NCBI RefSeq assembly: GCF_900113015.1
Contig: NZ_FONV01000001.1
Coordinates: 620,001 to 684,000, forward strand
DNA: 64,000 bases
DNA from: Actinoplanes philippinensis
GTDB lineage: Bacteria > Actinomycetota > Actinomycetes > Mycobacteriales > Micromonosporaceae
Reading direction: 5' to 3'
Shown here: piece by piece, positions 20,737 through 61,956 of the stretch
Numbering within the stretch: position 1 is the stretch's first letter
Layout: each line of letters opens with the position of its first letter
Translations under genes and position numbers: made by a program
Notes under the pieces: generated by a model
Told to the model about the DNA's origin: nothing
The model's database searches: none
What the model saw: only the letters and a program-made list of their open reading frames with translations

Positions 20737-20977
20737 GGTGAGGGGCTCTTCGTGTGATGCGGTACAGCCGAACGGATGATCAACAACGGCCGGGCGGCGT
20801 CCACATCGAAAGCCCTCACCGATGTCTGAGCAGCGCTGGATCTCCTATTTTCACACTGCACATCCGGGCTCTCACCGGCGAATCGTGCGCGTTGATTCCC
20901 TTTGGAAAGGTTGGTGTCCGGCAGAAATGGACAAACAGGGGGCGGAACCGGTGGCACCAGGGGGAGCCGGCGCCCCG

Positions 20978-27777: not shown

Positions 27778-27824
27778 CTGTCGGGTTTCCCCCATCGGTG
27801 TGTCGGTGGTACGCCGGGCTGCCG

Positions 27825-39388: not shown

Positions 39389-40051
39389 ATGAGCGACGTC
39401 ATCAACATCTGCTTCCACGGCATCGGCACGCCGCAGCGTGAGATGGAGCCGGGCGAGGACCGTTACTGGATCAGCGTCGAGCTGTTCCACGCGGTGCTCG
39501 ACGAGATCCGCACCTGGCCGTCGGTCCGGGTCAGCTTCGACGACGGCAACTCCTCGGACCTGGAGATCGGCCTGCCGGCGCTGCTGGAGCGCGGGCTGAC
39601 CGGCGAGTTCTACGTGCTGGCGTCCCGGTTCGGCAAGCCGGGCAGCCTCAGCGAGGAGGACGTGCGGAAGCTGCACGGCGCGGGCATGACGATCGGCACA
39701 CACGGCATGTGGCACCGGCCCTGGCGCGGCATGGACGCCGCGACCAGCCGGGACGAGCTGGAGACGGCCCGCCGGCAGATCGAGGACGCGGTCGGCGTGC
39801 CGGTCGACCAGGCGGCCTGCCCGCTCGGCCGCTACGACCGGCGGCTGCTCAGCCGGATGCGCGCGCTCGGCTACCGGCGGGTCTTCACCAGCGACCGGCG
39901 CCGGGCCCGCGCGGAGGACTGGCTGCAGCCGCGCTACAGCCTGCGCCGCGAGGACACCGTGGACGGGCTGCGCGCCGAGGCCCTGGTCGGCCCCGGCGCG
40001 CTGACCCGCCTCAAGCTGGAGGCGGTCGGAGTCGTCAAGCGGCTCCGGTAG
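39389..40051 (+). CDS. Polysaccharide deacetylase (NodB homology)
   Basis: A 220-residue carbohydrate esterase 4-type domain without signal peptide. Metal and catalytic residues: D51-D52 in VSFDDGNSSD, and H105 and H109 in THGMWH, the standard D-H-H triad. Later motifs are CPLGRYDRRLL and a weakly conserved C terminus. CE4 enzymes remove N- or O-acetyl groups from sugars. With no export signal, it may act on a cytosolic lipid-linked or nucleotide-linked sugar. It follows the GT2 gene by six bases. It is convergent with the GT2 gene at 40057, five bases away, with no visible terminator. Confidence 0.87.
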   Translation: MSDVINICFHGIGTPQREMEPGEDRYWISVELFHAVLDEIRTWPSVRVSFDDGNSSDLEIGLPALLERGLTGEFYVLASRFGKPGSLSEEDVRKLHGAGMTIGTHGMWHRPWRGMDAATSRDELETARRQIEDAVGVPVDQAACPLGRYDRRLLSRMRALGYRRVFTSDRRRARAEDWLQPRYSLRREDTVDGLRAEALVGPGALTRLKLEAVGVVKRLR

Positions 40052-41359: not shown

Positions 41360-44300
41360 TTGCGAGATCTCAGGCTCTTCCGGCAGCGGTCGCTGCTGGT
41401 TCTCACTCTGGTCGCGGCGGCGCTGTTCCTGCCGTCCGCCGGCCCGGCCAGCGCGGCCGACCCGTGCGCCCCGGTGGTCAATCCGATCGCCTGCGAGAAC
41501 ACCAGGACCGGCACACCGAAGACCACCTGGGACGTCAGCGGGTCGGGCAGCGCGGCGCTGCAGGGCTTCGCCACCGAGATGAGCGTCAACGTCGGCGAGA
41601 CGGTCAACTTCAAGATCGACTCCACGGCCACGTCGTACCGGCTGGACATCTACCGGATGGGCTACTACGGCGGCAACGGGGCGCGGTTCATCACCACGGT
41701 CAACCCGGTCGGGCGGCAGACCCAGCCGGCCTGCATCAGCGCGCCCACCACCGGGCTCGTCGACTGCGGCAACTGGGCGGTCTCCGCCTCGTGGCCGGTG
41801 CCGGCGACAGCGGTGTCCGGCATCTACTTCGCGCGCCTCGTGCGTACCGACGGCACCGCCGGCGCCAGCCACGTGATGTTCGTGGTCCGGGACGACGCGA
41901 GCCGCTCCGACCTGGTGTTCCAGACCTCCGACACGACGTGGCAGGCGTACAACACGTACGGCGGCAACAGCTTCTACGTCGGGTCGCCGGCCGGCCGCGC
42001 GTACAAGATCTCCTACAACCGGCCGATCACCACCCGCGGCACCGGGCCCGAGGACTTCGTCTTCAACGCCGAATACCCGATGGTCCGGTTCCTGGAGGCC
42101 AACGGGTACGACGTCAGCTACATCTCCGGCATCGACACCGACCGGCGCGGGTCCCTGCTGCGCAACCACAAGTCGTTCCTGTCGGTCGGGCACGACGAGT
42201 ACTGGTCCGGGCAGCAGCGCGCCAACATCGAGTCGGCCCGCGACGCCGGCCTGCACCTGGCGTTCTTCAGCGGCAACGAGGTGTTCTGGAAGACCCGCTG
42301 GGAGACCAGCGTGGACGGATCGGGCACCCCGTACCGGACCCTGGTCTGCTACAAGGAGACCCACGCCAACGCGGCCATCGACCCGAGCACCGAATGGACC
42401 GGCACCTGGCGCGACGCGCGGTTCAGCCCGCCGAAGAACGGCGGCCGGCCGGAGAACGGCCTGACCGGCACCTCCTTCGAGGTCAACTCGGGCACCGTCA
42501 ACCTGCAGGTCCCGGCGGCCGACGGCAAGATGCGGCTGTGGCGCGGCACCACCGTCGCGAGCCAGGCGTCCAATGCCACCGCCACCCTCGGCACCGGCAC
42601 ACTGGGGTACGAGTGGGACGAGGACCTGGTCAACGCGGCCCGCCCGCAGGGGCTGATCCGGCTCTCCACCACCACCGCGAGCGGCGTCGAGATCCTCACC
42701 GACAACGGCTCCACCTACGCCTCCGGCACCGCCACCCACAACCTCACCCTGTACCGGACGGCGAGCGGCGCGCTGGTCTTCGGCGCCGGCACCGTGCAGT
42801 GGTCGTGGGGCCTGGACAGCAATCACGACCGGGGCTCCGGCGCCGCCAGCACCCCGATGAAGCAGGCCACCGTCAACCTGTTCGCCGACATGGGCGCCCA
42901 GCCGGCCACCCTCCAGTCCGGCCTGACCGCGGCGACCGCCTCCACCGACACCGTCGCGCCGACCGCGGTGATCACCGCGCCCGCCGCGGGCGCCACCGTC
43001 TCGGCCGGCACCCGGGTCACCGTCTCCGGCACCGCCACCGACACCGGCGGCGTGGTCGGCGGCGTCGAGGTCTCCACCGACGGCGGAGCCACCTGGAAGC
43101 CGGCCGGCGGACGGGGCACGTGGACGTACTCGTTCACCACCCCGAACGCGCCGGGCGCCGTCGACATCCGGGCCCGCGCGATCGACGACAGCGGCCGGAT
43201 CGGCGCGGCCGTCAGCCGGTCGATCACTGTCGGCCAGCAGACCTGCCCGTGCAGCCTGTGGACCGTCGACGACGTGCCCGCCACCCCCAGCGACCCGGAC
43301 AGCACCGGCACCGAGGTCGGCGTGAAGTTCCGCGCCGACGTGGCCGGCAAGGTCACCGCACTGCGCTTCTACAAGGGCTCCGGCAACACCGGCACCCACG
43401 TCGGCAAGCTCTGGAACGCGGCCGGCACCCAGCTGGCCTCGGTCACCTTCACCGGGGAGAGCGGCACCGGCTGGCAGACCGCCACGTTCGCCACCCCGGT
43501 GTCGCTGACCGCCGGCGCCACCTACGTCGCCTCCTACTACGCGCCGAACGGCCACTACGCCGGGGACGTCGGCTACTTCGCGGCGAACGGCGTGGACAGC
43601 GGCCCGCTGCACGCGCTGCGCGACGGGGTCGACGGCGCCAACGGCGTCTACCGGTTCGGCGCCGGTTTCCCGACCACGTCCTGGGAGTCCGCCAACTACT
43701 GGGTCGACGTCGTCTTCACCACCGACGCGACCGGGCCGGACACCACCGCGCCGACCGTCACCACCCGCTCCCCCGCCGCCGGGGCGACCGGGGTGGCCGC
43801 CGCGAGCACCGTGTCGGCGACGTTCAGCGAGGCCGTCTCGGCGGCGGAGGTCAGCGTGAGCGGCCCGTCCGGCGCGGTGGCCGGCAGCACGAGCGCCGGC
43901 ACGAACACCGTCACGTTCACCCCGTCGGCCGCGCTGGCCGCGTCCACCACGTACACGGCCACCGTCAGCGGGGCGCGCGACGCCGCCGGCAACACGATGA
44001 CCAGCACATCCTGGACGTTCACCACCGCCGCCGCGACGACCGGGCCGAACTGCCCGTGCTCGGTGTGGCCCGCTTCGGCGACACCCGCATCCCCCGCCGA
44101 CAGCGAGACCGCCGCCGTGGAGCTCGGCATGAAGTTCCGCTCCGACGTCGCCGGCCGGATCACCGGGATCCGGTTCTACAAGGGCAGCGGCAACAGCGGC
44201 ACCCACGTCGGGCGGCTCTGGTCGTCGGCCGGGACCCTGCTGGGCAGCGTGACCTTCAGCGGCGAGACCGCGACCGGCTGGCAGCAGGCGACGCTGGCCA

Positions 44301-44545
44301 CCCCGGTCACGATCAGCGCCGGCGCCACGTACGTCGTGTCATACCACGCGCCGAACGGCCGCTACGCCTTCAACGGCGGGTTCTTCGCATCCTCCGGCGT
44401 CGACAACGGCCCGCTGCACGCGCTGCGTGACGGCGTGGACGGGGTCAACGGCGTCTACCGATACGGAACCGGCGGCGTCTTCCCCACCGACAGCTGGCAG
44501 TCGAGCAACTACTGGGTGGACGTCGTGTTCACCCCGGCGAGCTAG
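41360..44545 (+). CDS. Giant secreted protein 2: N,N-dimethylformamidase-like domain, Ig-like domains, two DUF4082 modules
   Basis: A 1061-residue paralogue of the protein at 20978. Signal peptide to about residue 33 (PASA-A). Residues 34-525 are dimethylformamidase-like with the same landmarks (SVGHDEYWS, FFSGNEVFWKTRWE, GALVFGAGTVQWSWGLD). An Ig-like domain (530-625), DUF4082 module 1 (631-790), a Big_5-type Ig domain (795-890) and DUF4082 module 2 (897-1060) follow; both modules begin with a CPCS motif that giant 1 lacks. The start is TTG, eight bases after GGGGAGG. It is followed after nine bases by giant 3, so both probably share one transcript. Activity unknown. Confidence 0.8.
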   Translation: MRDLRLFRQRSLLVLTLVAAALFLPSAGPASAADPCAPVVNPIACENTRTGTPKTTWDVSGSGSAALQGFATEMSVNVGETVNFKIDSTATSYRLDIYRMGYYGGNGARFITTVNPVGRQTQPACISAPTTGLVDCGNWAVSASWPVPATAVSGIYFARLVRTDGTAGASHVMFVVRDDASRSDLVFQTSDTTWQAYNTYGGNSFYVGSPAGRAYKISYNRPITTRGTGPEDFVFNAEYPMVRFLEANGYDVSYISGIDTDRRGSLLRNHKSFLSVGHDEYWSGQQRANIESARDAGLHLAFFSGNEVFWKTRWETSVDGSGTPYRTLVCYKETHANAAIDPSTEWTGTWRDARFSPPKNGGRPENGLTGTSFEVNSGTVNLQVPAADGKMRLWRGTTVASQASNATATLGTGTLGYEWDEDLVNAARPQGLIRLSTTTASGVEILTDNGSTYASGTATHNLTLYRTASGALVFGAGTVQWSWGLDSNHDRGSGAASTPMKQATVNLFADMGAQPATLQSGLTAATASTDTVAPTAVITAPAAGATVSAGTRVTVSGTATDTGGVVGGVEVSTDGGATWKPAGGRGTWTYSFTTPNAPGAVDIRARAIDDSGRIGAAVSRSITVGQQTCPCSLWTVDDVPATPSDPDSTGTEVGVKFRADVAGKVTALRFYKGSGNTGTHVGKLWNAAGTQLASVTFTGESGTGWQTATFATPVSLTAGATYVASYYAPNGHYAGDVGYFAANGVDSGPLHALRDGVDGANGVYRFGAGFPTTSWESANYWVDVVFTTDATGPDTTAPTVTTRSPAAGATGVAAASTVSATFSEAVSAAEVSVSGPSGAVAGSTSAGTNTVTFTPSAALAASTTYTATVSGARDAAGNTMTSTSWTFTTAAATTGPNCPCSVWPASATPASPADSETAAVELGMKFRSDVAGRITGIRFYKGSGNSGTHVGRLWSSAGTLLGSVTFSGETATGWQQATLATPVTISAGATYVVSYHAPNGRYAFNGGFFASSGVDNGPLHALRDGVDGVNGVYRYGTGGVFPTDSWQSSNYWVDVVFTPAS

Positions 44546-45935
44546 GAGCGCGTCTTGACCCTACCGAAACTCCGGTCGTTCCTGTTGTGCCTGGTGCTGG
44601 CGGCGACCGTGCTCATCGTCGCGCCCGCGGCTCCGGCCGCGGCCGCGACCTGTCCGTGCACCATCTTCAGCGCGTCGTCGGTGCCGGCCAGCCCGTCCGA
44701 CTCCGACACCAGCGCGGTAGAGGTCGGCGTCAAGTTCCGGTCCGACGTCGCCGGGCAGATCACCGGTGTCCGGTTCTACAAGGGCGCGGCGAACACCGGC
44801 ACCCACGTCGGCAACCTGTGGAACTCGGCCGGCGGCAACCTGGGCACCGTCACGTTCACCAACGAGACCGCGTCCGGCTGGCAGACCGCCACGTTCGCCA
44901 GCCCGATCACGATCAGCGCCGGCACCACGTACGTCGCGTCCTACTACGCGCCGAACGGCCGCTACGCCGGGGACAGCGGCGCGCTGCTGTCGGCCGGCGT
45001 GGACAACGCGCCACTGCACGCGCTGCGCAGCGGTGAGGACGGCGGCAACGGCGTCTACCGGTACGGCACCGGCGGCGGCTTCCCCGACAGCACCTGGCAG
45101 GGCGCCAACTACTGGGTCGACGTGGTGTTCACCTCCGGCGTCACCGACACCACGCCGCCGACCGTGACCAGCACCAGCCCCGCCGCCGGCGCGACCGGGG
45201 TGGCCACCACGGCGGCGGTCAGCGCCGTGTTCAGCGAGGCGGTGCAGACCGGCACCCCGGCCCTCACCGTCGCCGGGGTCACCGGCACGACCGCCTACAA
45301 CGCCGCCACCCGGACGGTGACGTTCACGCCCGGGGCGCTCGCCGCGTCCACGAGCTACACCGCCACCGTCTCCGGCGCCCGCGACACCGCGGGCAACCTG
45401 ATGAGCCCGCTGTCCTGGTCGTTCACCACGGGCGCCGGCGGCGGATCCGGCTGCCCCTGCTCGATCTGGCCGGCCACGGCCACCCCGGCCACCGGCACGG
45501 TCAACGACAACTCGGCGGTCGAGCTGGGCGTCAAGTTCCGCACCACGACGGCCGGCTACATCACCGGGCTCAAGTTCTACAAGGGCAGCCAGAACACCGG
45601 CACGCACACCGGCTCGCTCTGGTCGAGCGCCGGCACCCGGCTGGCGAACGTGACCTTCACCGGCGAGTCCGGCTCCGGCTGGCAGACCGTCACGCTCCCC
45701 GGGCCGGTCCCGGTCACCGCGAACACCACCTACGTTGCGTCGTACCACACCGACACCGGCTTCTACTCGGTGACGGCCGGCGGCTTCTCCTCGGCGGTCA
45801 CCCGTTCTCCGCTGACCGCCCTGGCCAACGGCACGGACGGCGGCAACGGCGTCTACCGGTACGGCGCGAGCGGCTTCCCCACCAGCAGCTACCAGTCCAC
45901 CAACTACTGGGTCGACGTCGTCTTCGACACCACCG
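43240..45935 (+). repeat. Four DUF4082 modules spanning two adjacent genes
   Basis: Four coding repeats of roughly 480 bases at about 43240-43722, 44041-44545, 44640-45135 and 45445-45935. The second (end of giant 2) and third (start of giant 3) are very similar at DNA level even though they lie in different genes; for example a 23-base stretch is identical at 44346-44368 and 44947-44969. Each begins with CPC(S/T) and ends with NYWVDVVF. The pattern suggests duplication and unequal exchange. Confidence 0.8.
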
Positions 45936-48900
45936 CGGCGGACACCCAGGCGCCGTCCCTGGCCGGCCGCGCCCCGGCCGCCGGAGCCTCCGGGGTGGCC
46001 ACCACGACCGCTGTGACAGCGGCGTTCACCGAGCAGGTCACCGCGGCCTCGATCGTGCTGACCGGCCCGTCCGGGACCGTGGCCGGCTCCACCACCTACG
46101 ACGCGACCACCGCCACGGCGGTCCTCACCCCGTCCACGGCGCTCGCCAACTCCACCTCGTACACCGCCACGGTGAGCGGGGCCCGGGACGCCGCGGGCAA
46201 CGTGATGACGCCGGTGACCTGGTCGTTCACCACGTCGGCGCCACCTCCGCCGCCACCGGACCAGGGCCCGGGCGGCCCCGTCCTGGTGATCAAGTCGGCG
46301 GTCTCCGGCGCCAGCGGGTTCACGTCGTTCGCCGCCGAGGTGCTGCGCGCCGAAGGCCTCAACGAGTTCGCCACCGTCGACCTGTCCGCGGTCACCCCGG
46401 CGCTGCTCGCCCAGTACGACGTGGTCCTGCTCGGCTCCACGCCGCTCACCGCGGCCCAGGTCAGCACGTTCACCACCTGGGTCACCGGCGGCGGCAACCT
46501 GATCGCCTTCCGGCCGGACAAGCAGCTCGCGAGCCTGCTCGGCCTGACCGCCACCACCGGCACCCTGGCCGAGGGCTACCTGCGGGTCGACACCACGACC
46601 GCGCCGGGCGCCGGCATCACCGGGCAGACCATCCAGTACCACAGCACCGCCGACCGCTACACGCTCTCCGGCGCCCGTTCGGTGGCCACGCTCTACTCCA
46701 CCGGCACGACGGCCACCGTCAACCCGGCGGTGTCGCTGGCCGACGTCGGCTCATCCGGCGGGCAGGCCGCGGCGTTCACCTTCGACCTGCCGCGGTCGCT
46801 GGTCTACACCCGTCAGGGCAACCCGGCGTGGGAGAAGCAGGACCGGGACGGCCGCGCGCCGATCCGCTCCGACGACCTGTACTTCGGCGGCGCCGCCACC
46901 GACTGGGTCGACCTCACCAAGGTCGCCGTGCCACAGGCCGACGAGCAGCAGCGCCTGCTCGCCAACCTGATCGGGACGATGAACGCCGACCGCAAGCCGC
47001 TGCCCCGGTTCTGGTACTTCCCGCGCAGCCTCAAGGCGGTCGTCGTCGCCACCGGTGACGACCACGCCACCGGCGGCACCGCGGGACGCTTCGACCAGTA
47101 CCTCGCCAACAGCCCGGCCGGGTGTGTGGTCGACGACTGGCAGTGCCCGCGGTTCACCTCGTACATCTTCCCGGACACGCCGCTCACCAACAGCCAGGCC
47201 ACCACGTACCAGAACCGCGGTTTCGAGGTCGGGCTGCACCTCAACACCGGATGCGCCAACTGGACGGCGGCGTCGCTCGCGGCCAACCTCACCGACCAGC
47301 TCGCGGCGTTCCGCGCCAAGTACGGCTCGGTGCGCGCCCCGGACACCAACCGCACCCACTGCATCGTCTGGTCCGACTGGTCCACGCAGGCCAGCCTGCA
47401 GAACGCCAACGGGATCCGGCTCGACACCAACTACTACTACTGGCCGGAGACCTGGGTCGCCGACCGGCCGGGCTTCATGACCGGCTCCGGCATGCCGATG
47501 CGGTTCGCCGACACCAACGGCGGGCTCATCGACATCTACCAGGCCGCCACCCAGATGACCGACGAGTCGGGACAGAGCTACCCGTACACCCCGGACGCTC
47601 TACTCGACGCGGCCCTCGGCACGCCGGGCTACTACGGGGCGTTCACCGCCAACATGCACACCGACTACGCGACCACCTACGACAGCGACCAGGTGCTGGC
47701 GTCGGCGCAGCGCCACAACGTGCCGCTGATCAGCGGCCACCAGCTGCTCACCTGGCTGGACGGGCGCAACGCGTCGTCGTACTCGAACATCGCCTGGACC
47801 GGGAACGACCTGACGTTCGCGGTCAACGTCGGCACCGGCGCCAACGGCCTCACCGGCATGGTGCCCACCGCCGGACCGGGCGGGCGGACACTGTCCACCC
47901 TGACCCGGGCCGGAGTCGCGGTCCCGTTCACCCGGACCACGATCAAGGGCGTCGAGTACGCGTTCTTCACCGCCGCGCCCGGTGCGTACACGGCCGGTTA
48001 CGCCGCCGCGGCCACCGCGACGCTCACCGCTTCGGCCGCGGCCGAGGCCGGCGGGACCAGCGCATCGGTCACGGTCGCGACCAGCACGGCGACGAAAACC
48101 ATCATCGAGTACGGGCTCCGCGCGACCGAACTCACGCAAAAGGCAGTCGACGGCTCGCAGACCGGCAAACGCACCGTCACCCTGTCCGGACTCGAGCCCG
48201 CCACCACCTACTGGTACCGGGCGAAGGTGACCACCCCGGACGGCCGGACCACCACCGGCCCGCTGCAGAAGGTCACCACCGGCGCCCGCGACCGCACCGG
48301 CCCGGCCACGTCCGGGGTCACCGTCACCGCCCGCCCGGACGGCACCGCCCAGGTGCAGTGGAAGTCCAGCGAACCCGCCGACGCCACCCTGCTCGTCGGC
48401 GCCTCGGCGAAGTCGCTGGCCAAGTGGCCCGGAACCCGCGACGCGACCCGGCTCAGCGCCGTGGTGACGGGTCTGGAGCCGCGCACCACGTACCACTACC
48501 GGGTCCGCAGCGTCGACGCGGCAGGCAACGTCTCCACCTGGCCGGCGCTGGACAAGCCGGCGGCGACGTTCGTGTCGTCCGCCACCGGTGTCGCCGACCA
48601 CACCGCCCCGCAGCAGCGGACCGGTGTCGAGTCCGGAGTCACCGTCGGCGACGACGGGGTGCGGCTCGCCGGGTCCGCCCGCAGCGGCACCCTGGTGTCC
48701 CGGGTGATGGACGCCCAGCAGATGGTCCGCTGGGACCGGCTCACCTATCAGGGCAGAGTGCCTGCGGGGGCGACCCTCACGGTGTACGTGCGCACCGGCA
48801 GCACCGCGGTACCGGACGGCACCTGGAGCGGGTGGACCGCCGTCGGCCAGAACGGCAAGGTGCCCGGCGGATCCCGATACATCCAGTACCGGGCCGAACT

Positions 48901-49333: not shown

Positions 49334-50830
49334 TCAGTAGGCGCCTGAGCTGCGGACCACCGCGCTGACCGTGCGGAAGAGGATGGCCAGGTCCATGGCG
49401 AGTGACCAGTTCTCGACGTAGGTGAGGTCGAGGCGGATCGACTCCTCCCAGGACAGGTCGGAGCGGCCGGAGACCTGCCACAGGCCGGTCAGGCCGGGCT
49501 TGACGACCAGGCGGCGCAGCATGTCGGCCGGGTAGTCGGCGACCTCCTTGGCCAGCGGCGGGCGCGGGCCGACCAGCGACATGTCCCCTTTGACCACGTT
49601 GATCAGCTGGGGCAACTCGTCGATGCTCAGGCGGCGCAGCCACTTGCCGACGGGGGTGATCCGCGGGTCCTCGCGCATCTTGAACAGCGCGCCGTCGGTG
49701 TCGTTGAGGTTGCCGAGCTCGAAGAGGCGGGCCTCGGCGTCGACCGTCATGGTCCGGAACTTGTAGAGCGTGAACGGCTTGCCGTCGCGGCCGACGCGCT
49801 CCTGGGTGAAGATCGCCGGGCCGCGGCCGCCCTTGCCGTACCGGACGAGCAGCGCCACCACCGCGAGCACCGGTGACAGCAGCATGATCAGCAGGATCGC
49901 GCCGACCCGGTCGAAGATCTCCTTGACCACGCGGGCGCTGCCCTTGAGGCGTGGGTGCTCGACGTGCAGCATCGGCAGGCCGTCGACGGGGCGGATGGTG
50001 GTGCGGTCGCCGGCCACGTCGACCAGGGTGCTGGCCACGATGAGGTCGATGTCGTCGCGTTCCAGCTGCCAGGCGAGGCGGCGGACGGCGGGGCCGTCGA
50101 TCTCCGGGCAGGAGAGCACGATCACGGTGTCGGCATCGGACCTCGCGACCGCGGTGGCCACGTCGTCGAAGGTGCCGTAGATCGGTGGCATGCCGGTGAC
50201 CGCGTGGCTGCGGACCATGCCGGGCGGCAGGCACGCGCCGATGACGCCGAGACCGTGGAAGCGCTCCCGGCTGAGCCGGCGGGTCATGTCGAGGACGGCC
50301 CGCTCGTGACCGACCAGGACCACCCGGTGCAGCCGCCGGCCGCGGGCCCAGGCCCGGTGCAGGCGCTGCCGGAAGAAGAATCGTGCGCCGAGGTCGACGA
50401 GGATCGCCAGCGGCATCACGATGCTCACATAACCGCGGGCCAAACGGAGGTCGAAAGCGAAGGACACAATGGCGAGACCGGCGGTCAGGGCCAATCCGGC
50501 ACGGAATACCCGCGCATACTCCTCGGTGCCGACGAAGAGGTGACGGGGCTCATATGCGCGGTTGAACGCCAGGCAGGCGATCCACGCGACCGGCAACAGC
50601 AGGGTGAGGAGCAGGTAGTCACGCTGATAGGGCGCGATGCCCTCGCTGCCGAAGCGGATCAGCAGCGCCCACGAGGCGGCGCTCAGGCCGACCACGAAGT
50701 CTAGGAGATAGAGCGTCAGCGCATAGCGGCTCTGCCAGCCCGCTCGCGCCTTCGTCGCCCGGGAGCGCGCCTTGAGCTGCGCGGCCGTCGCCGCCAGGTC
50801 AACGGTCTCCACGGATTCAATTGTCTGCAC
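49334..50830 (-). CDS. Polyprenyl-phosphate sugar phosphotransferase (EPS priming enzyme)
   Basis: A 498-residue WbaP/CpsE-type priming transferase. Four N-terminal membrane helices (to about 170), a Rossmann-like central domain (RRLHRVVLVGHERAVLDM near 183), one re-entrant helix (EIFDRVGAILLIMLLSPVLA near 311) and the catalytic cytosolic domain with FTLYKFRTM (about 355), SIDELPQLINVVKGDMSLVGPRP (about 400) and GLTGLWQVSGRSDLSWEE. It transfers a sugar-1-phosphate, usually hexose or an amino sugar, from a nucleotide sugar to undecaprenyl phosphate, starting EPS assembly. ATG 50830; the 231-base gap upstream probably holds its promoter. Confidence 0.92.
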   Translation of the reverse strand: MQTIESVETVDLAATAAQLKARSRATKARAGWQSRYALTLYLLDFVVGLSAASWALLIRFGSEGIAPYQRDYLLLTLLLPVAWIACLAFNRAYEPRHLFVGTEEYARVFRAGLALTAGLAIVSFAFDLRLARGYVSIVMPLAILVDLGARFFFRQRLHRAWARGRRLHRVVLVGHERAVLDMTRRLSRERFHGLGVIGACLPPGMVRSHAVTGMPPIYGTFDDVATAVARSDADTVIVLSCPEIDGPAVRRLAWQLERDDIDLIVASTLVDVAGDRTTIRPVDGLPMLHVEHPRLKGSARVVKEIFDRVGAILLIMLLSPVLAVVALLVRYGKGGRGPAIFTQERVGRDGKPFTLYKFRTMTVDAEARLFELGNLNDTDGALFKMREDPRITPVGKWLRRLSIDELPQLINVVKGDMSLVGPRPPLAKEVADYPADMLRRLVVKPGLTGLWQVSGRSDLSWEESIRLDLTYVENWSLAMDLAILFRTVSAVVRSSGAY

Positions 50831-54937: not shown

Positions 54938-55336
54938 TCAGCGATGTGGTGGCTTGACCGCCAGGACCGGGCGGCCGGCGTTGAGCAGGATCTGCTGTGC
55001 GGTGCTGCCGAGGAACAGCTTGCCCACCGGACTCCGGCGGCGGAGACCGATGACGATCACCGAGGCCCCGGCTTCGTCCGCGGCGGCCAGCAGGGTGTCC
55101 GAGAACTCCCCGCTGTGTGAGATCTGGCGGATCTCCAGCGGCACGCCCGCTTCGACCGCCTTGGCGCTGAGGTGGGCGAGGTCGTCGGGCGCGGCGACGT
55201 CCGCGCTGATCGGCGCGCCGCCGCGTGGTGAGTTGATCAGCAGTAGCGACTCGGATCGGCGAACCGCCTCATCGAGAGCGGCAGCGAAGGCCGCGTCGCC
55301 TTCCGGGGTAGGGAGATATCCGACCAGGACGGTCAT
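54938..55336 (-). CDS. Universal stress protein
   Basis: A 132-residue single UspA domain. MTVLVGYLPTPEGDAAFAAAL forms the first strand and helix, and the ATP-binding motif G-2x-G-9x-G(S/T) is matched loosely by VIGLRRRSPVGKLFLGSTAQQ (about residues 95-115). The ATG overlaps the tctA stop (ATGA), so it is the last gene of the transporter operon. Its role with a hexarate transporter is unknown; Usp proteins in transporter operons are thought to modulate flux under energy stress, which is inference. Confidence 0.85.
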   Translation of the reverse strand: MTVLVGYLPTPEGDAAFAAALDEAVRRSESLLLINSPRGGAPISADVAAPDDLAHLSAKAVEAGVPLEIRQISHSGEFSDTLLAAADEAGASVIVIGLRRRSPVGKLFLGSTAQQILLNAGRPVLAVKPPHR

Positions 55337-57207
55337 TCCGGCTCCTCAGTATGGCGGTCACGGTGGACGGGCTGGGTGACGGGAGCACCGGACTGCCCCG
55401 GCTCGTCATGAGGACGACCGGCCGCCTCCGTGCTCGTGGTGGCGGTCTTGTCGCGAACGGCGTGTTCCCCGGCCGCCTCGCCCGACGACTCAGCTGAGGC
55501 TGTTCCAGGCGACTCAGCTGAGGCTGTTCCAGGCCCCTGCCGCTCGCCTGACGTCGCAGCCGAAGGACCGGGGGCGACTGCGGCTCCCGTGTCACCGGCC
55601 TCAGGCGACGCTGGACCGAACGGGTCTGCGGCGGCTCCTGAGCCGACGATCTCGGCCGAGGCCGACGGGCGGGAAGCAACTGCCGTGACTGCAGGGTCAC
55701 CTGGCTCGGTCACGGCAGAACCGGCTGGGTCGGGGTGACGTCGGCGTAGCAGGGTTCGAGCCAGGGGAAGCAGGATCACGGCGAGGAAGGCGGCGGCGAG
55801 GACGCCGGAGATCGGGCGGCTCAGGAAGCCGGTGAGGTCGCCGTCGAACAGGAGCAGTGAGCGTCGCAGGGACGTCTCCAGCAGGCTGCCCAGGACGAAC
55901 GCCAGCACCATCGGACCCGGGTCGAAGCCGGCTTTCTTCATCAGGTAGCCGAGCACGCCGAATCCGATCACCAGGCCGATGTCGAAGACGCTGTTGTTGA
56001 CCGTGTACGCGCCGACCAGGGTGATCAGCACGGTGATCGGCGCCAGGACGGCGGCGCGAACCCGCAGGATTCGCACGAAGACGCCGAGCAGCGGGATGCT
56101 CATGATCAGCAGCAGGACGTTGCCGAGGTACATCGAGTTGACCACGCCCCAGAAGAGCTCCGGGTGCTCGGTGACCAGTTGCGGCCCGGGGGTGACGCCC
56201 TGGATGAGCAGCGCCCCGAAGATCACCGCCATGGTCGCGTTGGCCGGGATGCCGAGCGACAGCAGGGGGATGAACGACGAGGTGGCGGCCGCGTTGTTGG
56301 CGGTCTCCGGTGCGGCGACGCCCTCGATGGCGCCCTGGCCGAAGCGTTCCGGGTGCTTGGAACGGCGTTTCTCCAGGGCGTAGGCGGCCAGGGAGGAGAG
56401 GACCGCGCCGCCGCCGGGCAGGATGCCGAGAACGAAGCCGATGACCGAGCCCCGCCCGATCGCGCCGGACGACTGCCTGAGGTCGGCGCGGCTGGGCCAG
56501 ACGTTGGTGACCTTGGTCGGCGCCTGAACGGCGCGATGGCGCTCCTCCAGGTTGTAAAGGATCTCACCGAGACCGAAAAGGCCCATCGCGATGGGTACGA
56601 AGTCGATGCCGTCGGCCAGGGAGAGGTTGCCGAAGGTGAAGCGTTCGGCGCTGGTGAAGTCGTCGCGGCCGACGGTGGCGAGCAGCAGGCCGATCGCGGC
56701 GGCGGTGAGCGCGCGGATCCGGCCGCCGCTGCTGATCGTGCTGACCAGCATGATGCCGAGCAGGGCGAGCACGGTGTACTCGGGTGGGCCGAAGTCGAGG
56801 GCGAACCCGGCGACGACCGGAGCGACGAGGGTGAGCGCGATGATCGAAAGGGTGCCGCCGACGAAGGAGCCGATGGCGGCGATGCCGAGGGCGGCGCCGG
56901 CTCTGCCCTGGCGGGCGAGGGCGTGGCCGTCGAAGACGGTGACGACGGAGGAGGCCTCGCCGGGCAGTCGCAGCAGGACCGAGGTGATGGTGCCGCCGTA
57001 CTGGGCACCGTAGAAGATGCCGGCCAGCATGATCACGGCGGTGACCGGTTCGAGGCCGAAGGTGACGGGGAGCAGGATCGCGATGGTGGCGGCCGGGCCG
57101 AGGCCGGGCAGGACGCCGATGAGCATGCCGATGACGACGCCGACGAGGCAGTAGAGCAGGTTCGTCGGTTCGAGGACGACCGCGAAGCCGTCGATGACCG
57201 AGGACAA
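55333..57207 (-). CDS. tctA: Tripartite tricarboxylate transporter, large membrane subunit (TctA)
   Basis: A 624-residue protein. The first 500 residues are the TctA membrane domain with about twelve helices and family motifs GVLPGLGPAATIAILLP (about 32-48), GIFYGAQYGGTITSVLLRLPGE (about 66-87) and GILPGGGAVLSSLAAY. The last 110 residues form an unusual cytoplasmic Ser/Ala/Glu/Gly-rich tail, absent from typical 500-residue TctA proteins; it includes a tandem duplication (55487-55534). TTG start behind GGAGG. It is the third gene of tctC-tctB-tctA-usp. The hexarate neighbours suggest the substrate. Confidence 0.9.
   Translation of the reverse strand: MSSVIDGFAVVLEPTNLLYCLVGVVIGMLIGVLPGLGPAATIAILLPVTFGLEPVTAVIMLAGIFYGAQYGGTITSVLLRLPGEASSVVTVFDGHALARQGRAGAALGIAAIGSFVGGTLSIIALTLVAPVVAGFALDFGPPEYTVLALLGIMLVSTISSGGRIRALTAAAIGLLLATVGRDDFTSAERFTFGNLSLADGIDFVPIAMGLFGLGEILYNLEERHRAVQAPTKVTNVWPSRADLRQSSGAIGRGSVIGFVLGILPGGGAVLSSLAAYALEKRRSKHPERFGQGAIEGVAAPETANNAAATSSFIPLLSLGIPANATMAVIFGALLIQGVTPGPQLVTEHPELFWGVVNSMYLGNVLLLIMSIPLLGVFVRILRVRAAVLAPITVLITLVGAYTVNNSVFDIGLVIGFGVLGYLMKKAGFDPGPMVLAFVLGSLLETSLRRSLLLFDGDLTGFLSRPISGVLAAAFLAVILLPLARTLLRRRHPDPAGSAVTEPGDPAVTAVASRPSASAEIVGSGAAADPFGPASPEAGDTGAAVAPGPSAATSGERQGPGTASAESPGTASAESSGEAAGEHAVRDKTATTSTEAAGRPHDEPGQSGAPVTQPVHRDRHTEEPE
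55487..55534 (-). repeat. Tandem 24-bp duplication in the tctA tail
   Basis: Two identical in-frame copies, 55487-55510 and 55511-55534, encode a doubled PGTASAES-like octapeptide in the low-complexity C-terminal tail of TctA. Perfect identity suggests recent slippage or selection for repeat number. Confidence 0.85.
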
Positions 57208-57222
57208 CGGTCCTCCAGAGGA

Positions 57223-57675
57223 TCAGAACAGGTGGGGGATGGTGACGTCGAGCGCGCCGACGAACAGCGCGTAGAAGACGACGACGATGCCGGCGCTGAC
57301 GGCGATGGACGTACGCCAGCTCTCCCGGCCGAGGAAACGCAGCCAGACGAAGGCGAGCAGCAGGGTGGGGATCTCGAAGCCGATGGTGGCGATCACCGCG
57401 ACGTAGGCGATCATGCTGGCGACGGCGGCGACGACCAGGAGGCTGCTGCGGGTGAACCGCTCGGGGGGCTCGGCGCGACGGGACTGCACGGCGAGGATCA
57501 GGCCGAGGATCACGAGGGCGACACCGATGACCATCGGCCAGGTGCCGGGGCCGGACCCGAGGCCGGCGGCGCCGGTGACCGCCACGGCGCCGAGGGCGAT
57601 CACGACGCCGGCGGCGATCAGGTTCGCGGACGGACCGGCCGCGGGCGGCCGGTCGTCGGCGGGCTCGGTGGTCAC
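57223..57675 (-). CDS. tctB: Tripartite tricarboxylate transporter, small membrane subunit (TctB)
   Basis: A 150-residue protein with four predicted helices (LIAAGVVIALGAVAVTG; PMVIGVALVILGLILAV; LLVVAAVASMIAYVAV; IAVSAGIVVVFYALFV). It is the small membrane partner of TctA. The GTG start shares four bases with the tctC stop; the gap to tctA is 15 bases. Confidence 0.88.
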   Translation of the reverse strand: MTTEPADDRPPAAGPSANLIAAGVVIALGAVAVTGAAGLGSGPGTWPMVIGVALVILGLILAVQSRRAEPPERFTRSSLLVVAAVASMIAYVAVIATIGFEIPTLLLAFVWLRFLGRESWRTSIAVSAGIVVVFYALFVGALDVTIPHLF

Positions 57676-58661
57676 TTGGCGCTCAGATCGATCTTGTGCT
57701 GGGCGACGAGGCCACGGTATGTCTGGAGCGAGCCGTTCCACTGCTGGAGCAGCGCGGCTCCGTCCACCTCGTTGGCGGTGAGCAGCCGCTTGGCGTTGAA
57801 GTCTTTGTAGGCCTGATCCGCGAACCCCTTCTGGAAGGCCGTCCGCAGCCGGTCCACCACCTCCTTGGGGGTGCCCTTCGGCGCGACGACGGCTCGGGAC
57901 TGCTGGACCGGCACGTTGAACCCGGCCTCGGTGGCGGTCGGGATGTCCGGCATGTAGCTGGGCCGCTGGGTCGCGAAGGTGACCAGCGGGACCGCCTTGC
58001 CGGCCTCGATCTGCTCCTTGGCCTCGCCGAGTTGCACCGCCGCCACGTCGACCTGCCCGCCGAGGACGGCGGTCAGGGCTGGGGCGCCGCCGTTGAACGG
58101 CACGGCGGTGGCCTGCACACCGGCCTGAGCGAACAGCAGGGTCTGGGTGAGCTGGCTGCCGGTGCCGACGCCGGTGGTGGCGAAGGTGATCGGCCGTTTC
58201 GCGGCGACGATGCCCTGAACGGTCTTGAACCCGGTCCGGGGGTTGGCGACGAGGACGAAGTCGTCCTGGGAGATCCCGGTGACGACCTCGTAGTTGTTGA
58301 CGTCGACGGCCTGGTCGGCGGGCACCGCCAGGGGCGTGATGTAGGCGAGCGACCCGACGAAGACCATGATCGTGTACCCGTCGGGTTTGGCGGCGGCGAG
58401 CTCCTTGGCGGCGACCGCCCCGTTGGCGCCGGGCCGGTTCTGCACGGTGATCGGCTTGCCGAGGTCCTTGCTCGCGGGATCGGCGAGGGCGCGGCCGATG
58501 AGGTCGGTGCTGCCGCCGGCGTCCTGGCCGATCAGCAGGGTGACGGCACGTTCCGGGTAGGCGGCGGTGGAGCCGCTGTCGCCGTCGGAGCCGAGGTTGC
58601 CGCCGCAGCCGGCGAGCACGAGCAGGCCGGCCAGGCCGAGTGCGGGGAGCGTTATTTTCAT
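57672..58661 (-). CDS. tctC: Tripartite tricarboxylate transporter substrate-binding lipoprotein (TctC)
   Basis: A 329-residue extracytoplasmic solute-binding protein. The leader ends in the lipobox LAGC (cysteine near residue 19), so it is a membrane-tethered lipoprotein. IGQDAGGSTDLIGRALA, VQNRPGANGAVAAKELA and TGVGTGSQLTQTLLF follow the TctC/BugD fold, which binds carboxylate groups. The neighbouring catabolic genes point to a hexarate such as glucarate or galactarate. ATG 58661 follows GGGAG. It is the first gene of the operon, driven by the promoter at 58702-58732. Confidence 0.88.
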   Translation of the reverse strand: MKITLPALGLAGLLVLAGCGGNLGSDGDSGSTAAYPERAVTLLIGQDAGGSTDLIGRALADPASKDLGKPITVQNRPGANGAVAAKELAAAKPDGYTIMVFVGSLAYITPLAVPADQAVDVNNYEVVTGISQDDFVLVANPRTGFKTVQGIVAAKRPITFATTGVGTGSQLTQTLLFAQAGVQATAVPFNGGAPALTAVLGGQVDVAAVQLGEAKEQIEAGKAVPLVTFATQRPSYMPDIPTATEAGFNVPVQQSRAVVAPKGTPKEVVDRLRTAFQKGFADQAYKDFNAKRLLTANEVDGAALLQQWNGSLQTYRGLVAQHKIDLSAK

Positions 58662-58701
58662 CGGGAATCTCCCGCTTGTGAGGGGGGTCACTGGTGCCGC
58701 G

Positions 58702-58756
58702 AGCCTATGACCCTGCAGTAATGCATGTCCAAGCCAATTAGTGCATCGATTGATAC
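58702..58756 (-). promoter_or_regulatory. tctC promoter with LysR-type operator
   Basis: On the minus strand: operator GTATCAATCGATGC (58756-58743), -35 TTGGAC (58732-58727), 19-base spacer, -10 TAGGCT (58707-58702). Operator and -35 occur with the same spacing upstream of the dehydratase gene at 59656-59710. The operator ends ten bases before the divergent LysR start, so it can also autoregulate that gene. Confidence 0.75.
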
Positions 58757-58765
58757 CTTGGCGGC

Positions 58766-59653
58766 ATGACGTACTCCCTCGAACAGCTTCGGGGTTTCAT
58801 CGCGGTCGCGGAGGAACTGCACTTCGGCCGGGCAGCCGTCCGGCTGCGGATGACGCAGCCCCCGCTGAGCAGGCAGATCCAGAAACTGGAGGCGGCCGTC
58901 GGGGTGCAGTTGCTGGAGCGGGACAACCGGCGGGTCCGCCTCACGCCGGCCGGCCACGCGTTCCTCAACGAGGCCCGCCGGATCCTGGCGATCGCCGAGG
59001 CCGCTCCCGCCCTGGCCCAGCGGGTCTCGTCGGGCATGCGCGGCGTGCTCAAACTGGGCTTCACCTCGGCCTCGACGTTCGGTCACCTGGGCCGGATCCT
59101 CGACTATCTCAATCTGGAGCTGCCGGAGGTGCACATCGAGCTGTTCGAGATGGTCACCCGGGAGCAGATCGACGCGCTGACCGCCGGGGACATCGATCTG
59201 GGCCTGGCCCGGCCGCCGTTCGACCCCGAGCTCTTCGAGTCCCGGCTGCTGCACCGGGAGGCGCTGCTCCTGGCGGTGCACGAGGATCATCCGCTGGCCG
59301 ATCTGCGCCGTGCCGTGGTGCCCGCCGACCTGGTGCGTGAGCCGCTGATCTTCCACTCCCAGCAGAAGGCGCGGTACTTCTACGACCTGGTCGTCAGCAT
59401 GGTGCCGCTGGCGCAGGAGCGGATCATCCACACCGTCAGCCAGGTGATGACCATGCTCTGGCTGGTGTCCCGCGGCCGGGGGGTGGCCTTCGTGCCCGAG
59501 TCCGCGGGCATGATCGCGGTGCCGCACGTCGAGTACCTGCGGATCGACACACCCATCCCCGAGCCGGTCGAGCTGCACGTGCTCTGGCCGCGGAAGTCCG
59601 ACAACCCGGCGCTACCGCGAGCGATCTCCGCCCTCAGCTTCATGATGCACTGA
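58766..59653 (+). CDS. LysR-family regulator of the hexarate locus
   Basis: A 295-residue LysR-type regulator: N-terminal winged helix (LEQLRGFIAVAEELHFGRAA, MTQPPLSRQIQKLEAAVGVQLL), linker helix, then a periplasmic-binding-like effector domain (LKLGFTSASTFGHLG, then VSRGRGVAFVPESAG). It lies between the divergent tctCBA operon and the downstream catabolic genes and is flanked on both sides by copies of the same operator, so it almost certainly controls both, probably with a hexarate or a pathway intermediate as co-inducer. ATG 58766 lies six bases after a TACCTT -10-like hexamer, so its mRNA may be leaderless. Confidence 0.92.
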   Translation: MTYSLEQLRGFIAVAEELHFGRAAVRLRMTQPPLSRQIQKLEAAVGVQLLERDNRRVRLTPAGHAFLNEARRILAIAEAAPALAQRVSSGMRGVLKLGFTSASTFGHLGRILDYLNLELPEVHIELFEMVTREQIDALTAGDIDLGLARPPFDPELFESRLLHREALLLAVHEDHPLADLRRAVVPADLVREPLIFHSQQKARYFYDLVVSMVPLAQERIIHTVSQVMTMLWLVSRGRGVAFVPESAGMIAVPHVEYLRIDTPIPEPVELHVLWPRKSDNPALPRAISALSFMMH

Positions 59654-59655
59654 CA

Positions 59656-59717
59656 GTATCAATCGATGCCGAAACAATCTTGGACAGGCATCGTCGTCGC
59701 TTCCTACGGTTGCTTCG
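59656..59717 (+). promoter_or_regulatory. Promoter of the hexarate catabolic operon with LysR-type operator
   Basis: Operator GTATCAATCGATGC (59656-59669), -35 TTGGAC (59680-59685), 19-base spacer, -10 TACGGT (59705-59710), then the GTG start at 59717. The layout is the same as in the tctC promoter. With only six bases between -10 and GTG the transcript should be leaderless. Confidence 0.75.
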
Positions 59718-60634
59718 TGAACGCGATTCCCCCTCTCGACCTGGCCGCCCGCCTGGCCTCGGGCCTGCTGTCGTTCCCCGTCACCCACTTCGACGACCGC
59801 CTCGCCTTCGACGAGAGCCGCTACCGCGAGCATCTGGCGTGGCAGGCGAGTTTCGGCGTCGCCGGCCTGTTCGCCGCCGGCGGCACCGGCGAGGGCTTCT
59901 CGCTCACCAGCTCCGAGATCGACACCGTGGTCCGGGCTGCGGTGGACGAGGTCGGGGCACGTGTTCCGGTCATCGCCCCGGCCACCGGCAGCACCGCGCA
60001 GGCGGTCGCGCAGGCGCAGGCCGCCGAGGCCGCGGGCGCCGCCGGTCTGCTGCTCTTCCCGCCCTACCTGACCGAGGCCAGCCAATCGGGCCTGATCGCG
60101 CACGTCGACGCGGTGTGCCGCGCCACCGGCCTGGGCGTGATCGTCTACAGCCGGGCCAACGCCGTCCTGGAGGACGTGACGGTCGCCGAGCTCGCCGACC
60201 GCAACCCGACACTCATCGGCCTCAAGGACGGCGTCGGCGACATCGAGCGGATGACCCGCACCTACGCCAAGGTGGGTGACCGGCTGATCTACGTGGGCGG
60301 GCTGCCCACGGCGGAGACGTTCGCGCTGCCGCTGCTGCAGCTCGGGGTCAGCACCTACTCGTCGGCGCTCTACAACTTCCTGCCCGAGTTCGCGCTGCGC
60401 TTCTATGCGGCGGTGCGCGCCCAGGACCGGGCCGCCGTCTACGGGATGCTCAACGACTTCGTGATCCCCTACCTCGACATCCGCGACCGGGCCCGCGGTT
60501 ACGCCGTGTCGATCATCAAGGCCGGGCTGACAGCGGTCGGGCGTGACGGCGGGCGGGTCCGGCCACCGCTCACCGACCTCACCGCGGACGAGCGCTCCGA
60601 TCTCGGGCGGCTGATCGACAAGGTGCGGCCATGA
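59717..60634 (+). CDS. 5-dehydro-4-deoxyglucarate dehydratase (decarboxylating)
   Basis: A 305-residue class I aldolase-fold (DapA superfamily) enzyme converting 5-keto-4-deoxyglucarate to 2-oxoglutarate semialdehyde with loss of CO2 and water. Lys170 in IGLKDGVGD is the Schiff-base lysine; [12 protein letters not shown] near residue 55 and [10 protein letters not shown] near 144 are the KDGDH-type motifs (YxRxN rather than DapA residues). GTG 59717 is preferred because the -10 lies six bases upstream and the family N terminus starts there. First gene of the catabolic operon; its stop overlaps the next ATG. Confidence 0.88.
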
Positions 60635-61953
60635 AGCCCACCGTCGAGCGCGTCGAGGTGGTGCCGGTCGCCGGCCACGACAGCATGCTGCTCAACCTCA
60701 GTGGTGCTCATGGGCCGTTCTTCACCCGTACCGTCGTGGTCCTCACTGACAGCGAGGGCCGCACCGGCCTCGGCGAGGCGCCCGGGAGCGCAGCGATCCG
60801 CCAGACTCTCGAGAGCGCCGGTGAGCTGCTGCTCGGCAGGCCGGTCGCGGAGTTCGCCTCGCTGCTGCGCAGCTTCGCCGAGATCCATGCCGGCCAGGAT
60901 TCCGGGGGCCGGGGCCTTCAGACGTACGATCTGCGCGTCACGGTCCACGCGGTGACCGCTCTGGAGTCGGCGCTGCTCGACCTGCTCGGCCAGCAGCTCG
61001 GGGTGCCGGTCGCCGAGTTGCTCGGCGAGGGGAAGCAGCGGGACAGCGTGCCCGTGCTCGGATACCTCTTCTACGTCGGTGACACCGCCCGCACCGAGCT
61101 GCCCTACCGGCACGAGGCCGCCCCGGCCGACGACTGGGAGCGGTTGCGCCGCGCGCCCGCTCTGACTCCGTCGTCGATCGTCGCGCTCGCCGAGGCGGCC
61201 CAGGCCCGTTACGGTTTCCGCGACTTCAAGCTCAAGGGTGGTGTGTTCGCCGGCGAGCGGGAGATCGAGGCGGTGCATGCGCTGGCCGGGCGATTCCCCG
61301 ACGCCCGGATCACCCTCGATCCGAACGGTGGCTGGCTTCTCGACGACGCCATCGCGCTCTGCCGTGACCTGCAGGGGGTGCTCGCCTACGCCGAGGACCC
61401 GGTCGGCGCCGAGGGCGACCTGTCCGGGCGGGAGACGATGGCCGAGTTCCGGCGCGCCACCGGGTTGCGGACAGCGACGAACATGATCGCGACCGACTGG
61501 CGGCAGATGGCCCACGCGGTGCGCGCCCACGCCGTCGACATCCCGCTCGCCGACCCGCATTTCTGGACGATGCGGGGTTCGGTCCGGGTCGCGCAGCTGT
61601 GCCACGACTTCGGCCTCACCTGGGGCTCGCACTCCAACAACCACTTCGACATCTCGCTGGCGATGTTCACGCACGTCGGTGCGGCCGCGCCCGGCGAGAT
61701 CACCGCCCTCGACACGCACTGGATCTGGCAGGACGGTCAGCGGCTCACCCGCGAGCCGTTCCCGATCCGGGACGGCGCCATCACCGTGCCGTCCGCGCCC
61801 GGCCTCGGTGTCGAGCTCGACCGTGACGCCCTCGCCGCCGCCCATGAGCTCTTCCGCGAGCACGGGCTCGGCGGGCGTGACGACGCGACGGCCATGCAGT
61901 ATCTCCTTCCCGGTTGGCGCTTCGACCCCAAGCGCCCCTGTCTGGTGCGGTGA
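60631..61953 (+). CDS. gudD: Glucarate dehydratase (enolase superfamily)
   Basis: A 440-residue enolase-superfamily dehydratase converting D-glucarate (and L-idarate) to 5-keto-4-deoxyglucarate. K200 and K202 in KLKGG are the KxK base motif, ITLDPNGGW and AYAEDPVG carry metal ligands, and H334 in [14 protein letters not shown] is the second base; GudD proteins share this last motif. Length matches the family. The ATG overlaps the preceding stop (ATGA). Confidence 0.9.
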
Positions 61954-61956
61954 CCC

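Follow-up and report, generated by a model that had tools for sequence, protein, structure and literature searches.

A NodB-fold deacetylase-like core in a secreted Actinoplanes protein, a candidate new family of exopolysaccharide-modifying enzymes

Deacetylation decides whether several biofilm polysaccharides turn into a sticky, charged matrix, and the carbohydrate esterase (CE) families CE18, CE21 and CE26 were each founded on one protein. Here we describe a deacetylase-like core in a giant secreted protein of Actinoplanes philippinensis, encoded in a 64,000-nucleotide stretch of DNA (hereafter the window; assembly GCF_900113015.1, contig NZ_FONV01000001.1, positions 620,001 to 684,000 of the forward strand). 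The core comprises about 580 amino acids and joins a ThuA/glutamine amidotransferase (GATase)-like domain (A), a NodB-fold deacetylase-like domain (B) and a small beta domain (C). With a probability of roughly 0.6, we consider it a secreted, probably active metal-dependent exopolysaccharide de-N-acetylase, or a close acyl-amide or ester hydrolase, of a new family.

The described enzymes with the most similar plan are PelA (CE21; 9cgy), Agd3 (CE18 with CBM87) and PelADA of Bacillus cereus (CE26/CBM114). Like the core, PelA has a ThuA/IFT52-like mixed alpha/beta domain followed by a CE barrel and then a beta domain; for the first of these, the published nearest folds are those of ThuA-like proteins, PhzE and IFT52 (PMC12022489). 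PelA differs in carrying an extra hydrolase domain in front. Its motif 1 is DxD, in which the base comes first and the metal Asp two positions later, whereas the core has DxH in its branch, and it keeps H600 and H604 in motif 2 without a motif-3 Arg, in contrast to the single motif-2 His and the RxH of motif 3 in the core. Agd3, an exopolysaccharide deacetylase, is secreted and has the same three-domain order as the core protein, but it has D377/D378, an HxxxH formed by H510 and H514, and a distant Arg that coordinates the base (PMC7229062). PelADA likewise combines an alpha/beta/alpha domain, a CE barrel and a beta domain, but has an adjacent Asp pair plus HxxxH; its motif-5 His is able to touch Zn too (PMC13254593).

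Other NodB-type enzymes resemble the core in single features of the putative metal site. The ligand layout of ChbG/YdjC recalls the one proposed for the core, with D11, H61 and H125 as ligands, D10 as base and H206 as acid; H125 is unaligned with CE4 in sequence but overlaps a CE4 metal His in space (PMC9402603). Its base and ligand Asp are adjacent, unlike the DxH/DxD of the core family. To our knowledge, ChbG has neither the ThuA-like nor the beta domain. In HP0310 (HpPgdA) base and ligand stand two residues apart, as the putative ones do in the core, Asp 12 being at the water and Asp 14 the ligand (PMC3084791), but His 86 and His 90 are kept in motif 2 and the chain has a single domain. The CE4 proteins BoPDA and CtAxeA have, like the core, lost the second His of HxxxH and bind metal by a His-Asp dyad plus water (PMC11713874), whereas the core has an invariant motif-3 His.

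Predicted fold of the core

The core was modelled with AlphaFold2 from ten input sequences, and the models were compared with known structures by Foldseek and by VIA, with 50 VIA matches listed per query. PelA of Pseudomonas thermotolerans (9cgy) was Foldseek rank 1 for the whole core (E 6.8e-10, root-mean-square deviation (rmsd) 9.4). In VIA, PelA superposed modestly over 444 residues (Z 15.6, rmsd 6.4), and the other 49 matches listed covered at most 268 residues. The CE18 domain order (alpha/beta/alpha, CE, beta-sandwich) is present in the predicted model and in the fold matches of its regions; Agd3 was not among the 50 VIA matches listed for either the whole core or the CE domain, which is no evidence against a shared fold.

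Taken by region, domain A of the whole-core model matched 1t0b (Z 16.5) and 4jqs (Z 16.6), GH42 domains, IFT52 and an N-acetyl-(R)-beta-phenylalanine acylase (8i59, Z 15.4, 19% identity), and these matches overlap the published nearest-fold set of the PelA alpha/beta domain. Domain B matched 3rxz (Z 16.2), PuuE (15.5) and ArnD (15.2) in the whole-core model. When folded alone, it matched 3rxz (Z 14.9), the PuuE allantoinase 3cl6 (14.2), HP0310 (3qbu; 13.5), SpPgdA (2c1g; 12.4), PelA (12.2) and ChbG (7vi8; 10.8). HP0310, 3rxz, 3s6o and 1z7a were among its closest folds, and most of the 50 VIA matches listed for the lone domain were polysaccharide deacetylases. An initial annotation, made from the window sequence alone, had described a ThuA/glutamine amidotransferase-like segment followed by a deacetylase-like region. 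The first of these is weak in sequence and clear in the predicted fold, and the second has the NodB fold in both models. The odd-looking pairing of the two is the known plan of some exopolysaccharide deacetylases, since PelA and Agd3 share this order; the core resembles both in plan and, we infer, in chemistry. Residues 1-245 of the core (cut at 46253) contain no Cys. Domain A, being free of Cys, has no GATase nucleophile, and the idea that it acts as a glutaminase or amidotransferase was rejected for this reason.

Candidate metal site and family membership

Conservation was assessed in 51 non-redundant cores, the window's included, from Chloroflexota, Actinomycetota, alphaproteobacteria and Gillisia. 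To be counted, a core had to cover 400 or more profile positions and lie in a frame of 400 amino acids or longer. Of the 106 that did so, many of them the same locus twice, one was kept per 90% identity group; partial and split copies were excluded. An earlier set of 40 cores had omitted 10 repeated or near-related loci and L046 (L and G numbers are our labels for loci and genomes), which falls into two pieces, each below the cut; this relative has one in-frame TGA between its halves.

The putative base, D835, is present in all 51 cores, and the residue that follows it varies freely (D in 24, S in 9, A in 8, G in 6, E in 2, N in 1 and T in 1). The next column, that of H837, holds His in 35 cores, Asp in 13, Cys in two and Glu in one. 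Because only these four residues occur there next to a freely varying neighbour, the column looks like a metal ligand, and it most likely stands where the metal Asp of DxD does, since PelA and HP0310 use a base and a ligand two residues on. The motif-2 His, H895, is kept in 49/51 cores, and the canonical second His of HxxxH, four residues on, is found in just two. In motif 3, R933 is present in 44/51 cores and H935 in 51/51; the motif-5 His, H1035, is present in 50/51, and the D1003 column holds D in 42, N in five and E in four. Twenty columns are kept in at least 49 of the 51 cores, and the D/H/H/H positions are four of them. By analogy with ChbG, whose H125 takes the place of a CE4 metal His with which it does not align, H935 probably replaces the lost second-His ligand. 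In the model (core numbering), D269 lies one residue before a strand end, H329 lies within a strand, and H369 and H469 close strands.

The initial annotation had read both GDDHATGG and GLHLNTG correctly, their conservation shows that they are no chance patterns, and the single His that it noticed in place of HxxxH proved to be a trait of the whole family. It had missed RTHC with its invariant His and the motif-5 His of NMHTD. Its comparison with CE4 holds for the NodB fold, but a plain CE4 enzyme is not what was found: the best whole-core match is PelA, the first motif is DxH/DxD rather than DD, and the loss of HxxxH goes together with the invariant motif-3 His.

In an unrooted tree of the family, in which long rows (among them L133, L053, L033 and L041) are unsurely placed, a single branch separates all 35 DxH rows from the rest (support 96/94; recovered in 97% of bootstrap trees). 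This distribution is consistent with a single Asp-to-His switch at this position. In an outer branch (L125, L126, L129 and L134), which carries HDSD/HDTD and NKNH motifs, the base is preceded by a His that recalls PelA H526, and a link between the family and PelA is possible.

In Pfam and NCBIfam, the core of the window protein gave only sub-threshold matches, the best being ThuA (PF06283; E 0.012, 16.3 bits, below the 33.4 cut-off). No match to it was found at E up to 10 for Polysacc_deac_1 (CE4, PF01522), Agd3_CE and CBM87_Agd3 (PF25115, PF25116) or YdjC (PF04794), and the Agd3 models do detect the Agd3-like protein L075. Distant relatives in Chloroflexota bridge the sequence gap to the NodB and ThuA profiles. 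Among the relatives scanned, the best Polysacc_deac_1 score was that of L053 (E 1e-4, 22.7 bits, cut-off 23.1), L048 reached E 0.024, below the curated cut-off, and the best ThuA score was that of L039 (E 2.1e-5, 25.3 bits, below cut-off). A profile of the 51 cores compared with a two-sequence profile of the CE4 protein of the window gave E 1.9e-4 for one pair at a probability of 47.6%, with motif 1 aligned to FDD and motif 2 to the first His of HGMWH. Profile comparison with Agd3-like proteins of related genomes gave no match. PelA and Agd3 chains were absent from the PDB sequence matches of two family profiles (A1 and A4) at E up to 10, in a copy dated 2026 (9cgy was released in 2025); PelADA (CE26) was not matched either, the presence of its chain in that copy being unchecked. 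Flavodoxin and hydroxynitrile lyase (E 0.3-0.9) were all that the PDB sequence searches gave.

Measured against the features of CE4, the family has the NodB barrel, as predicted, and the motif-5 His, and it lacks HxxxH, the DD pair and a profile score above cut-off; the window protein does have DD, but the second Asp occurs in only 24/51 cores. For CE21, the structural match extends over three domains, and the DxD plus HxxxH triad is missing (DxH and a single motif-2 His). The pattern of ChbG, one motif-2 His and a His later in the chain, appears in the sequences of 49/51 and 51/51 cores, respectively. Membership in CE4, CE18, CE21 or YdjC was rejected on the profile and motif features tested, and the best reading of the core is an unclassified family in the NodB superfamily. 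A non-exhaustive literature search by title or abstract start found no description of it. No YdjC protein was found in the host's own genome. Four of 20 sampled related genomes match Agd3_CE (L074-L077; frames of 732-758 amino acids, HxxxH kept), and the host's genome has no such match.

Partner protein, gene context and distribution

The core gene starts 9 bases past the end of a frame that encodes a protein with a DMFA2_C domain (N,N-dimethylformamidase beta-like). Neighbours of the core were inspected at 32 loci, a subset of the genomes with a match. Immediately upstream of the core, and in the same orientation, a DMFA2_C frame is present at each of the eight loci inspected in Actinoplanes and its close kin; Gillisia has one as well. 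In two further cases, from one Chloroflexota genome and another actinobacterial genome, the two are fused in one frame: L054 (5897-17008) encodes 3704 amino acids with DMFA2_C at 126-515 and the core at 1098-1676, and L069 (4543-13584) encodes 3014 amino acids with DMFA2_C at 106-500 and the core at 926-1502. Because fusions usually mean joint function, this suggests that the core and DMFA2_C act jointly in one branch of the family. Derivation of the ThuA-like domain from the neighbouring DMFA2_C was also considered and was rejected (profile comparison probability 0.7%). The partner would hint at the function of the DMFA2_C/DUF4082 giants, and the name DUF4082 occurs in a single paper of the literature searched. 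A second DMFA2_C protein in the window (20822-24676) has three DUF4082 domains and no core domain and is encoded near genes for a decarboxylase (25016-26227) and an AMP-binding enzyme (26224-28431).

In the window, the core gene lies in an exopolysaccharide cluster with a Wzy-like ligase, glycosyltransferases, an ordinary CE4 gene, a sugar transferase, Rml-type genes, DegT aminotransferases, a PglD-like acetyltransferase and a GFO/IDH/MocA oxidoreductase. At the Sinorhizobium locus L032, the core gene is flanked on one side by rfb genes, aminotransferases and an N-acetyltransferase and on the other by a sugar transferase and a CpsD kinase. L031 and L032 are Sinorhizobium meliloti megaplasmids, and the L032 homologue is annotated as 'Ig-like domain-containing protein'; S. 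meliloti offers a tractable host for the function of the core. Fifteen classes of neighbour were tested at 29 loci outside Actinoplanes, some of which fall short of 20 kb. The control comprised 40 stretches, each 20 kb long, taken from nine genomes; eight of these genomes also hold test loci. Glycosyltransferases occurred near the core at 10/29 loci versus 2/40 control stretches (p 0.0019), DegT at 7/29 versus 2/40 (p 0.025), GFO at 9/29 versus 4/40 (p 0.03) and PglD at 5/29 versus 1/40 (p 0.044); these p-values are optimistic because the loci are interrelated and fifteen classes were tested. DMFA2 was not significantly enriched (3/29 versus 0/40, p 0.07). Since GFO, PglD and DegT occur together, the context suggests a polymer with N-acetylated amino sugars; which sugar is beyond this evidence. 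Sporangium-matrix gene clusters of Actinoplanes missouriensis have been described (PMC13390465); a link between them and the core was considered, and we do not claim one.

Among named carriers, Actinoplanes have the versions of the core nearest to the window's (76-87% identity). The core was found in 17/67 genomes of the genus sample and, at full length, in 3/396 genomes of the Actinomycetota sample, the host's own being counted in both; the host's 10.4-Mb genome has a single copy. Among 201 Chloroflexota genomes, profile A1 matched 23 (G616 with a short stretch only), several with multiple copies, and profile A5 matched 25 (G526, G545 and G571 being weak short matches). In the Pseudomonadota (1/398) and Bacteroidota (1/296) samples, a full-length core was found only in the sample's centre genome. 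Weak short matches to the ThuA part, not counted as members, accounted for 27 of 28 matching genomes in Bacteroidota, two of three in Pseudomonadota and two of five in Actinomycetota. Matches were found in 29 of 72,556 plasmid records, 27 of them Sinorhizobium megaplasmids. The deep diversity in Chloroflexota, together with close relatives scattered elsewhere, suggests horizontal spread of the core. No relative was found in viral contigs, and a phage origin was rejected on that result. The domain is common in Chloroflexota and also occurs in Actinoplanes and on Sinorhizobium megaplasmids, yet the window protein is not significantly matched there in Pfam and NCBIfam.

Proposed activity and competing explanations

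From these comparisons, we infer metal binding, catalysis, a substrate and roles for the accessory domains. The enzyme would modify the exopolysaccharide that the gene cluster around it produces. H837, H895 and H935 would coordinate a divalent metal ion, which is probably Zn. Most other branches of the family have Asp in place of H837, and H935 would take over from the second His that HxxxH has lost here. D835 would activate water with the help of R933, H1035 would serve as acid, and D1003/E1004 may tune H1035. The Cys-free ThuA-like domain and the beta domain would border the substrate cleft in the manner of PelA and Agd3. The DUF4082, Big_5 and fibronectin III (fn3) modules would present the enzyme or fix it in place, with the DMFA2_C protein acting at its side. 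A three-histidine site is known to us in no NodB deacetylase, although no dedicated search was made. If the core is active, it would extend the range of NodB-fold metal chemistry and supply a natural Asp-to-His ligand switch that can be checked by mutants. More tentatively, the family may have lost the second His of HxxxH, passed its role to the invariant RxH His and then once changed the DxD Asp to His, giving a three-His site. In Actinoplanes and relatives, the core might then be one head of a two-headed secreted amide hydrolase with a dimethylformamidase-like other head, and the two might take acyl groups off the amino sugars of one and the same exopolysaccharide; we regard this whole picture as a speculative one.

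Several observations weigh against a deacetylase that works on exopolysaccharide. Confidence in the predicted structure is moderate, with a mean predicted local distance difference test score (pLDDT) of 70.4 for the whole core (predicted template modelling score, pTM, 0.65) and 70.2 for the CE domain folded alone (pTM 0.77). The pLDDT falls below 50 at core positions 392-433 and 435-444, which span motif 4, and averages 64 around motif 5. For the lone CE domain, just two Foldseek matches reached E <=0.001, the best at 3.3e-4. Two Chloroflexota relatives (L127 and L128) carry Cys, Glu and Cys at the DxH position, the motif-2 His and the motif-3 Arg, respectively; they may be inactive, or possibly use another metal. 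BoPDA, which also lacks the second His, was inactive on the substrates tried (PMC11713874). DMFA2_C was found in just 11 of the 32 examined loci and in none of the other 21. Near the core, sugar transferases (4/29 versus 2/40, p 0.2) and ATP-binding cassette (ABC) transporters (5/29 versus 11/40) were not significantly enriched, and neither were the Rml, Wzy, acyltransferase, CE4 or beta-helix classes. Finally, 9/29 loci had no glycosyltransferase, GFO, DegT or PglD match.

The main rival explanation is that the core is a catalytically inactive deacetylase-like domain that a surface protein retains for carbohydrate binding or as a structural element, one of the two possibilities that the initial annotation had left side by side. 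The DUF4082, Big_5 and fn3 modules around the core, the missing HxxxH, the lack of Cys in the ThuA-like domain and the existence of CE4 pseudoenzymes such as BA3943, which occur among the fold matches, would all fit such a role. We nevertheless consider it unlikely, because a binder would not need the conservation seen at the site: the positions of the base, the acid and the putative ligands are kept in at least 49/51 cores, many of them distant, or, at the DxH position, are replaced only by Asp, Cys or Glu. Moreover, Chloroflexota have frames of about 600 amino acids, such as the one of 597 in L060, that are barely longer than the core. A new carbohydrate esterase subtype, the other possibility named in that annotation, is the better supported of the two.

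The fold match to the PuuE allantoinase, the acylase 8i59 among the matches of the ThuA-like domain, and a partner family named for N,N-dimethylformamidase could instead point to an amide or cyclic-amide hydrolase acting on a small molecule or peptide, either allantoinase-like or dimethylformamidase-like with its neighbour. This is improbable in our view. PuuE has lost both motif-1 Asp residues and is not metal-dependent (PMC10967932), whereas the base Asp of the core is invariant; the comparison of the ThuA-like domain with the DMFA2_C profile found nothing, and the protein is secreted and multimodular, with genes for exopolysaccharide around its own in the window and around those of some relatives. 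It is very doubtful that the core is simply an ordinary divergent CE4, CE18 or CE21 enzyme missed by current profiles. It does share fold and three-domain order with PelA and Agd3, but the defining HxxxH is absent, and the Pfam, PDB and Agd3-like profile searches described above failed to connect it with these families. A probably active deacetylase of a new family remains the explanation that we prefer, and the features of its locus are listed in Table 1. The fibronectin III domains that the initial annotation had placed after the core are supported by Pfam (E 1.6e-6, two stretches).

Table 1. Coordinates in the window of the core protein, its domains and motifs, and neighbouring genes
Feature	Position	Strand	Basis or remark
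Whole secreted protein, 1478 aa	44555..48991	+	Open reading frame; TTG start preceded by AGGAG
Signal peptide-like segment	44558..44647	+	Sequence reading
DUF4082 domain 1	44675..45139	+	Pfam PF13313, E 4.4e-105, residues 42-188; edges from sequence
Big_5 Ig-like domain 1	45146..45439	+	Pfam PF13205, residues 198-292; edges from sequence
DUF4082 domain 2	45452..45937	+	Second of two Pfam stretches; edges from sequence
Big_5 Ig-like domain 2	45941..46243	+	Second of two Pfam stretches; edges from sequence
Core (domains A to C)	46268..48007	+	
Core domain A, ThuA/GATase-like alpha/beta, Cys-free	46268..46996	+	Fold matches; sequence
Core domain B, NodB-fold deacetylase-like	46997..47788	+	Fold matches; Pfam match of L053; profile match to window CE4 protein
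Motif 1, GDDHATGG	47054..47077	+	D835 putative base (codon 47057-47059); H837 putative metal ligand (47063-47065)
Motif 2, GLHLNTG	47231..47251	+	H895 putative metal ligand (codon 47237-47239)
Motif 3, RTHC	47351..47362	+	R933; H935 putative replacement metal ligand (codon 47357-47359)
Motif 4-like, TDESG	47558..47572	+	D1003/E1004 acidic pair
Motif 5, NMHTD	47651..47665	+	H1035 putative catalytic acid (codon 47657-47659)
Core domain C, small beta-rich	47789..48007	+	Strands predicted in model; edges from sequence
fn3-like domain 1	48014..48283	+	fn3-type Pfam families, two stretches; edges from sequence
fn3-like domain 2	48302..48571	+	Best Pfam stretch, residues 1253-1325; edges from sequence
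Partner gene, DMFA2_C + Big_7 + Big_5 + two DUF4082	41360..44545	+	Pfam
Ordinary CE4-type polysaccharide deacetylase gene	39389..40051	+	Pfam Polysacc_deac_1, E 1.2e-16; SFDDG and HGMWH present
Bacterial sugar transferase	49334..50830	-	Pfam Bac_transf, E 2.8e-68

A scan for promoters and terminators gave about the same yield as shuffled sequence. Beyond the exopolysaccharide genes, positions 55333-63084 of the window hold an ordinary catabolic stretch with a TctA/TctC transporter, a LysR regulator, and DHDPS-like and enolase-superfamily enzymes.

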